Below, in pieces: positions 50,022-51,259 of a stretch of 64,000 nt of DNA. Each line of letters opens with the position of its first letter. Within the stretch, counting starts at the first letter, position 1. The notes under the pieces are model-generated. The model was given only the letters and a program-made list of their open reading frames with translations. It made no database searches and was not told where the DNA came from. The stretch spans positions 1 to 64,000 of the forward strand of contig QCBY01000003.1 of the NCBI GenBank assembly GCA_003279005.1, in the 5' to 3' direction. The translations under genes and the position numbers were made by a program. This DNA comes from Prochlorococcus sp. AG-347-J22 (GTDB lineage Bacteria > Cyanobacteriota > Cyanobacteriia > PCC-6307 > Cyanobiaceae).

Positions 50022-50057
50022 ATGGAATCAAATATGGAATCAAATATGGAATCAAAT
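50022..50057 (+). repeat. 12-bp tandem repeat, three copies, at the ycf4 start
   Basis: The unit ATGGAATCAAAT occurs three times in succession without mismatch, encoding MESN each time. Each copy begins with an ATG in frame, so it looks like slippage duplication of the start region and may alter initiation. Confidence 0.95.
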
Positions 50058-50603
50058 CTTTCATCTTTTAATAAAATTGAACAAAAAATCAACGGCTCGA
50101 GAAAAATATCAAATTATTTAGTTGGTGGGATGCTTACAATTGGAGGTTTGGGTTTTATATTGGCTGCCATTTCAAGTTATACAGGAAGAGATCTACTACC
50201 TTTAGGTAATCCTTCATCTTTACTTTTTATTCCTCAAGGAATAATTATGGGTGCTTATGGCTTAATAGCCAATTTGTTAAACATATACCTATGGTATTTG
50301 GTATTAATAAATTTTGGTTCAGGTTACAATTCTTTTGATAAAAGTTCCAAATCTGTTGAAATCACTAGAAAAGGACTTTTTAAAGATGTTAAAGTCGAAT
50401 TAAAATTTGATGAAATTAAATCTGTGAAATTAGATATAAGTGAGGGATTCAACCCAAGAAGAAGAATCGCATTAGTTCTTAAAGGTAAAAAGAAAGCTCT
50501 TCCTCTAAGTGGAGCAGGAGAACTTAAGCCTTTACTTCAAGTTGAAGAGGAAGGTGCAAAACTAGCTAAGTTTTTAAATGTAAATTTGGAGGGTTTAAAA
50601 TAA
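50022..50603 (+). CDS. ycf4: Photosystem I assembly protein Ycf4
   Basis: 193 residues. Two membrane helices (about 33-55 and 72-100) and the conserved LLFIPQGIIMGAYGLIANLLN plus VEITRKGLFKD and RRRIALVLKGKKKALPLSG identify Ycf4. It helps assemble photosystem I. The N-terminus is a triple repeat MESNMESNMESN made by three copies of a 12-bp unit, so the native start could be the first, second or third ATG. Its stop overlaps the likely start region of the following lipoprotein gene. Confidence 0.95.
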   Translation: MESNMESNMESNLSSFNKIEQKINGSRKISNYLVGGMLTIGGLGFILAAISSYTGRDLLPLGNPSSLLFIPQGIIMGAYGLIANLLNIYLWYLVLINFGSGYNSFDKSSKSVEITRKGLFKDVKVELKFDEIKSVKLDISEGFNPRRRIALVLKGKKKALPLSGAGELKPLLQVEEEGAKLAKFLNVNLEGLK

Positions 50604-50605
50604 TA
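50588..50605 (+). promoter_or_regulatory. Strong Shine-Dalgarno ahead of ATA codons (start of the lipoprotein gene)
   Basis: GGAGGG at 50588-50593 is followed after 6 bases by ATA (50600) and ATA (50603), both in frame with the lipoprotein sequence. The spacing is ideal for initiation there and there is no ATG, GTG or TTG in the interval up to 50651. Confidence 0.55.
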
Positions 50606-51259
50606 AGATTTTATTTATTAAGACCATTTTTACTTTTTAAGATATTTTTATTGCTAGTTACAGGGTGCAGTTACAAGAATGCTTTAGATTCTTATTATTA
50701 TTGCGAAAAACTTAATCTCAATTGTATAAAAGAGAATCGAATAGTATCTTTCAAGACTTCAAAAGGAGATTTTGATGTAAAGCTATATGGGGAAAATAAT
50801 CCAGTCACAGTAAATAATTTCATCAGAAATGTAAAAAAAAATATTTATAAAAATAAAAGGTTTTATAAAATAATTAATTTTTCTCAAGTTCAATTAATTT
50901 ATTCAGGTATTAATCCAGAAAATAATTATTACAAAAAAGAAAATCAATATCTAAATAAACTCACACGAGATATTCCCTTGGAAATAAAGTTAAATAATGA
51001 AATTGAACCCAAATATGGATACCAAATCTTAGATCCTTCGAAAATTATTAACCTTAAAAATTTTTTTGAAAAGGGTTCATTAGCAATGGTAAAAAGTGGA
51101 AGAAGGAATTCATCATCCACTGAGTTTTTCTTTGTAACTAATAAATTTCCAGAATTAGATGGAAGGTACTCAATATTTGGGAAGGTAATTAAAGGAATTG
51201 AAATTTTAGATAAAATAGATAAGGAAGATTTGATTTTTGAAATCATAATTTTTAATTAA
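50600..51259 (+). CDS. Lipoprotein cyclophilin-type peptidyl-prolyl isomerase, non-standard start
   Basis: About 219 residues if started at ATA 50600. The first standard start is TTG at 50651, but that would cut a lipoprotein signal: upstream codons read [20 protein letters not shown] followed by a TGC lipobox, with the lipid-carrying Cys in LVTGCS. The body is a cyclophilin domain ([61 protein letters not shown]), with several active-site aromatics present but the catalytic Arg not obvious. Probably an extracytoplasmic folding helper. The 3' end overlaps the convergent ilvN by 4 bases. Confidence 0.75.

Follow-up and report, generated by a model that had tools for sequence, protein, structure and literature searches.

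Where does translation of the cyclophilin gene that follows ycf4 in Prochlorococcus begin, when its first standard start codon lies inside the signal peptide and a strong Shine-Dalgarno (SD) sequence stands in front of ATA? The gene is located in a stretch of 64,000 nucleotides (the window), which is positions 1–64000 of contig 3 in an incomplete genome assembly (36 contigs totalling 1.41 Mb; completeness 86%). The nearest named loci are those of Prochlorococcus single-cell genomes, and the genome size and low G+C suggest that the genus of the window (g1) is the high-light clade. On the forward strand, ycf4 (50022–50603) encodes a photosystem I assembly protein of 193 amino acids (Pfam Ycf4, E 1e-55; NCBIfam PRK02542, above its cut-off) and ends with the stop codon TAA at 50601–50603. 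The cyclophilin gene (50600–51259) follows directly on the same strand, in the −1 frame relative to ycf4, and comprises, when read from the ATA at 50600–50602, 219 codons plus the stop codon TAA at 51257–51259. The SD, GGAGGG (50588–50593), lies within the ycf4 codons TTG GAG GGT. It is followed by TTTAAA, giving a spacing of 6 nt between GGAGGG and ATA (7 nt from the GGAGG core to AUA), by the ATA at 50600–50602, by a second ATA at 50603–50605, and then by the codons AGA TTT TAT TTA TTA AGA CCA TTT TTA CTT TTT AAG ATA TTT TTA TTG CTA GTT ACA GGG TGC. The nearest in-frame stop 5′ of ATA 50600 is the TAA at 50567–50569, and there is no ATG, GTG or TTG between the two.

The product belongs by profile to the cyclophilins: residues 47–207 match PF00160 with 101.5 bits, compared with a curated cut-off of 21.7 (Pfam Pro_isomerase, 7e-29). 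Its best relative in the PDB, as found by phmmer, is the cyanobacterial/thylakoid cyclophilin Alr5059 (PDB 7a73, entry 7a73_A; 9.3e-15). The two proteins are alike in belonging to the cyclophilin fold family, but the Prochlorococcus protein is short, has a single domain and carries a lipoprotein signal. This signal peptide (50600–50668) has a basic n-region (R3, R8), a hydrophobic core and a V-T-G-C lipobox, with the Cys codon at 50666–50668, i.e., the elements of a type II signal as read directly from the sequence. The mature product is probably a lipid-anchored cyclophilin of the lumen or the periplasm, if lipidation and location are as such a signal would predict.

Whether the ATA is a peculiarity of one genome can be seen from the same junction in related genomes. 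In all, 130 loci of the genus were read: the window, the 29 best-match loci and 100 loci fetched from the listed matches. A search of 266 genomes of the genus gave some match in 257, partly weak ones to other cyclophilins, and the 130 loci are the better part of these; being mutually related and taken from the top of the hit lists, they are neither independent nor random. In 128 of the 130 loci, an ATA that begins one base upstream of the ycf4 stop is in the reading frame of an intact cyclophilin; of the other two loci, one has GTA at this codon and one has a broken frame. Thus, the GGAGGG at good spacing before an in-frame ATA at the ycf4 stop, to which the first-pass annotation had drawn attention, is a feature of the genus. 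That annotation had spoken of an ATA pair: the first ATA (50600) is the conserved one, and the second is not, codon 2 being ATA in 3 and AAA in 102 of the 129 in-frame loci. At the GTA locus (L034, genome G073), AGGAAG is followed by an in-frame TTG 15 nt downstream of the GTA, which is plausible as a replacement start. In the only frame-broken copy (L165, genome G118), one base is missing from the run of A residues after ATA, which fits a sequencing error, a real mutation or transcript slippage alike.

The first-pass annotation had proposed that the ATA may be a decayed ATG, and that orthologous junctions be inspected for ATG at this codon. A change of one base from ATA to ATG would indeed restore a standard start, and the genome is AT-rich. 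However, neither ATG nor GTG nor TTG was found at this position among the 130 same-genus loci, which come from separate genomes. Ten named Prochlorococcus single-cell genomes share the junction (nine with ATA, one with GTA), as do one-contig genomes such as G033 and G023 (loci L017 and L032), which together argue against an assembly error. Recent decay in the window genome, or a sequencing error, is exceedingly improbable given the 128 ATA loci, and both were rejected; an earlier ATG, if ever present, was lost before the genus diversified. A count in the 266 genomes, which is rough because a few listed matches fall outside the junction, gives the SD plus ATA pattern in 193 genomes, including 82 of the 87 most complete ones. 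The corresponding pattern with NTG at the SD gave 10 matches in the 266 genomes, 8 of them away from the known ycf4–cyclophilin junction of the genome concerned and 2 in genomes in which no junction was found.

It could also be imagined that the gene is decaying throughout the genus and is weakly translated or not at all, since a standard start has been lost and one locus is broken. A decaying gene, however, would not be expected to keep its frame in 129 of 130 loci, nor to have its differences concentrated at third codon positions. In 4075 equal-length pairs, variation per codon is highest at the third position both in the leader (0.189, compared with 0.136 and 0.096 for the other two) and in the mature part (0.198, compared with 0.093 and 0.069), which implies constraint on the gene at the level of the protein. 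Together with the SD, which is locked as described below, these data make decay of the gene very unlikely. The ATA start at the 128 loci looks like a feature that has been kept, rather than a sequencing error or the mark of a broken gene.

The sequence TGGAGGG is present in all 129 in-frame loci, within the part of ycf4 that encodes LEGLK. The Glu codon of this motif is GAG in 130/130 loci, compared with 161 of 902 Glu codons (18%) in the body of ycf4 of the same loci, and the Leu codon preceding it ends in G in all 130 (TTG in 127, CTG in 3). In other genera, the homologous Glu codon is GAA in 34/40 loci. No reason at the level of the Ycf4 protein is apparent for the choice of GAG, and an SD for the next gene is a natural one. 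The pattern at these synonymous sites of ycf4 therefore indicates that the SD is under selection and is locked in place there. Chance is far from accounting for this, or for the in-frame ATA at 128 of 130 loci. The anti-SD of 16S rRNA, GGATCACCTCCT, was found in all six complete-type genomes of the genus that were examined; the incomplete window assembly gave no match to it.

An SD of this kind would place the ribosome on the ATA; the first canonical start in the window is TTG at 50651–50653, codon 18 of the reading frame, 5 residues before the Cys. As the first-pass annotation noted, and as the frame reading bears out, it falls inside the signal. Translation from this TTG would give a protein without a signal peptide, and many loci of the genus have TTG at this Leu codon or at one close by. 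When present, though, a canonical start between ATA and Cys usually stands 3–7 residues before the Cys (107 of 115 loci), and 14 of the 129 in-frame loci have none at all in this interval, for which reason TTG 50651 was rejected as the main start. Beginning at the TTG would also leave unexplained the conserved SD, the basic n-region and the hydrophobic codons upstream. The net charge of codons 2–10, counted from ATA, is +1 to +4 in 129/129 loci, as a signal peptide requires, and in 127 of them a Cys follows the start by 18–22 residues; in the other two the first Cys counted lies earlier, within the leader. A lipoprotein signal following ATA, as had been proposed at first pass, is thus well supported by comparison, and initiation at the TTG is highly improbable.

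The possible starting point can also be limited from the 5′ side. None of the 129 in-frame loci has a canonical start upstream of ATA, and in 99 of them there is an in-frame stop 15 nt 5′ of it, which limits the start to the codons TTT/GGA/GGG/NNT/AAA/ATA or to a later one; among these, ATA alone is both a single base away from ATG and shared by all 99 loci. Only 3 of the 129 in-frame loci have a canonical start 15 residues or more ahead of the Cys, compared with 60/60 loci from other genera. The junction therefore has what marks an SD-driven non-AUG (AUA or AUU) start: an SD that is strong and stands at the usual distance, no canonical start, and conservation in relatives.

Instead of a second initiation, the ribosome might slip by −1 at the Lys codon that precedes the ycf4 stop (T TTA AAA TAA) and produce a Ycf4–cyclophilin fusion, with the SD-like GGAGGG stimulating the shift. 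The cyclophilin frame is exactly −1 relative to ycf4, the heptamer T TTA AAA precedes the stop in the window, and re-pairing of a single tRNA on A-AAA or A-AAG could occur in 123 of 129 loci. Conservation of a slippery heptamer is lacking, however: the full heptamer context, GGGTTTAAA, occurs in only 38/129 loci, and 6/129 loci have G-AAA or A-AGA, which allow no re-pairing, with the gene still intact. In the dnaX frameshift, the SD is about 10 nt upstream of the slip site, whereas here it abuts the slip site. Furthermore, a separate, positively charged n-region is conserved directly after ATA. Frameshifting is, on these grounds, unlikely.

One caution concerns the codon itself, as ATA is partly forced by the end of ycf4: any last codon of the form xxA followed by TAA or TAG yields ATA, whatever the cyclophilin needs. 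The last ycf4 codon is AAA in 127 of the 128 loci in which it encodes Lys, and AAA likewise predominates (often at 92–96%) at the other conserved Lys positions of ycf4, which makes the final A by itself weak evidence; the case rests on the frame, the SD and the absence of other starts. The RNA around ATA is nothing special, i.e., it is not unusually unstructured (z about 0). It is, nevertheless, highly probable on this comparative evidence that ATA 50600 is the true start, an AUA start placed by the SD and probably coupled to the upstream stop, from which a cyclophilin lipoprotein with a basic, hydrophobic signal would be made. The proposal made at first pass, that a strong SD directs initiation at the ATA over the ycf4 stop, is in this respect well supported.

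How would the ribosome use such a codon? A 30S subunit would be set on the AUA by the GGAGG core, which lies within the last codons of ycf4. Ribosomes ending ycf4 at UAA would probably be held by this SD and restart one base back, on AUAA, in the manner of AUGA couplings. The arrangement has the anatomy of a termination–reinitiation pair, in which the start touches or overlaps the upstream stop (here ATA 50600–50602 over TAA 50601–50603, and likewise in the other ATA loci). In the AUGA/UAAUG couplings treated in the available part of PMC12548453, the start also lies over the upstream stop with the SD inside the upstream gene; the Prochlorococcus start differs in being AUA (AUAA), and its likeness to these couplings is one of anatomy. 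Perhaps, the AUA start keeps the output of cyclophilin low and tied to that of Ycf4.

In other genera, the stop of ycf4 is overlapped at the same −1 place by ATGA, GTGA or TTGA in 4/40 loci (L075, L069, L071, L081), and in many loci an ATG is found a few bases downstream of the ycf4 stop. The placement of a start touching the end of ycf4 thus appears to be old. In the related genus g56, TTG stands 11 nt before the ycf4 stop in 24/24 loci (L044, L063–L065, L194–L213), in a frame relation to ycf4 that differs from that in g1, and the ancestral codon consequently cannot be read from it. An origin of the g1 junction from an ATGA overlap, by a change of TGA to TAA, was considered and found unsupported, given this TTG at −11 in another frame and a g1 ycf4 that is one codon longer (LEGLK) than most.

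Is the cyclophilin gene alone in this? Two 400-kb stretches of genomes G033 and G022 were compared in 20-kb pieces. The survey is noisy (at least 93 and at least 106 candidates in its two passes, mostly antisense or overlapping frames) and gives no count of such genes. Two candidates besides the cyclophilin were picked by eye and followed in orthologues; both are conserved genes without a canonical start before their conserved N-terminus in the comparison of G033 with G022. The first encodes a secreted protein of about 120 amino acids (L216:11483–11845 in G033; orthologues L254–L283). In g1, the codon after its AAGGAG (or AAGGG/CGGAG) is ATT in 28/30 loci, ATC in one and GTT in one, the GTT copy being that of the window's own genome (L261), with a TTG two codons later. 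In other genera, a canonical start is nearby in 19/19 loci, and ATG is at the homologous place in 15/19, including 7/7 loci of g56. A simple reading of these sequences would be that ATG changed to ATT in the ancestor of g1. The second (L231:6625–6993 in G033; L284–L313) follows a sodN-like gene and resembles a signal peptidase gene, probably that of SodX; in 30/30 g1 loci it lacks a canonical start ahead of the catalytic SM motif. Several other genera (loci L334–L357) lack one as well, and the gene may be read from an ATT or by a frameshift out of the gene before it. Thus, with the conserved SD–ATT of a second gene standing in place of the ATG of sister genera, AUA and AUU starts seem to be tolerated in the genus.

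In Escherichia coli, infC and pcnB have AUU starts, and the AUU of infC serves autoregulation. The Prochlorococcus case would resemble these in the use of an inefficient AUH start for regulation. It differs in that infC of g1 (L315–L333), tried as a positive control for an AUU start, begins with ATG in all 15 loci that were readable among the 20 fetched; the classical IF3 feedback codon, and with it AUU autoregulation, is therefore absent in the genus.

Possibly, a group of conserved genes in g1 Prochlorococcus retains AUA and AUU starts for a purpose, with selection maintaining AUAA and avoiding AUGA, one base change away, at the cyclophilin, so that the lipoprotein would be made only by inefficient, stop-coupled re-initiation and the SD would have been strengthened to compensate; we put this forward tentatively, as somewhat less than an even chance. 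A TGA stop of ycf4 would turn the ATA into ATG, and among the 130 ycf4 genes of g1 the stop is TAA in 126, TAG in 4 and TGA in none, compared with TGA in 15/40 loci of other genera. The absence of TGA is compatible with avoidance of AUG, but may be plain stop-codon preference, as g56 also has no TGA in its 24 loci.

The closest known parallel is in Staphylococcus aureus, where, according to the part of PMC13009471 available, ccpN, infC and citZ start with AUA and cvfC1 with AUU, as shown by Ribo-Ret and luciferase. That part of the paper also states that an extended SD is said to direct the start of infC, cvfC1 and ccpN, that the non-canonical start is conserved for cvfC1 and ccpN, and that AUA/AUU starts give about 10% of the output of AUG, rising to as much as 30% for ccpN in rich medium; a paper on the E. 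coli pcnB start is among those it cites. The systems are alike in having conserved AUA/AUU starts with a strong or extended SD. Compared with the S. aureus genes in this source, the Prochlorococcus case, in a cyanobacterium, is deduced from sequence comparison, and its start lies inside the end of the upstream gene, overlapping its stop. No earlier description of an AUA or other non-canonical start in Prochlorococcus was found in the literature searched, which mostly excludes subscription journals and was judged in part from the titles and abstract openings of the matches listed, and no title among the matches listed indicates ribosome profiling of Prochlorococcus. The portions available of PMC11497404 and PMC6778093 hold nothing bearing on AUA starts, and that of PMC5009743 has no passage on Prochlorococcus.

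If this reading is true, the conserved AUA starts that were reported in S. aureus in 2026 would have a counterpart in cyanobacteria, with the overlap of an upstream stop as an added element. In one of Earth's most abundant phototrophs, standard gene callers would misplace the start of a conserved lipoprotein, or drop its signal, and the starts of other genes would very likely be misplaced too. With more than 100 related genomes, the genus would offer a natural set for comparing AUA initiation, SD strength and stop–start overlap, and would raise the question of whether streamlined genomes keep weak starts for regulation.
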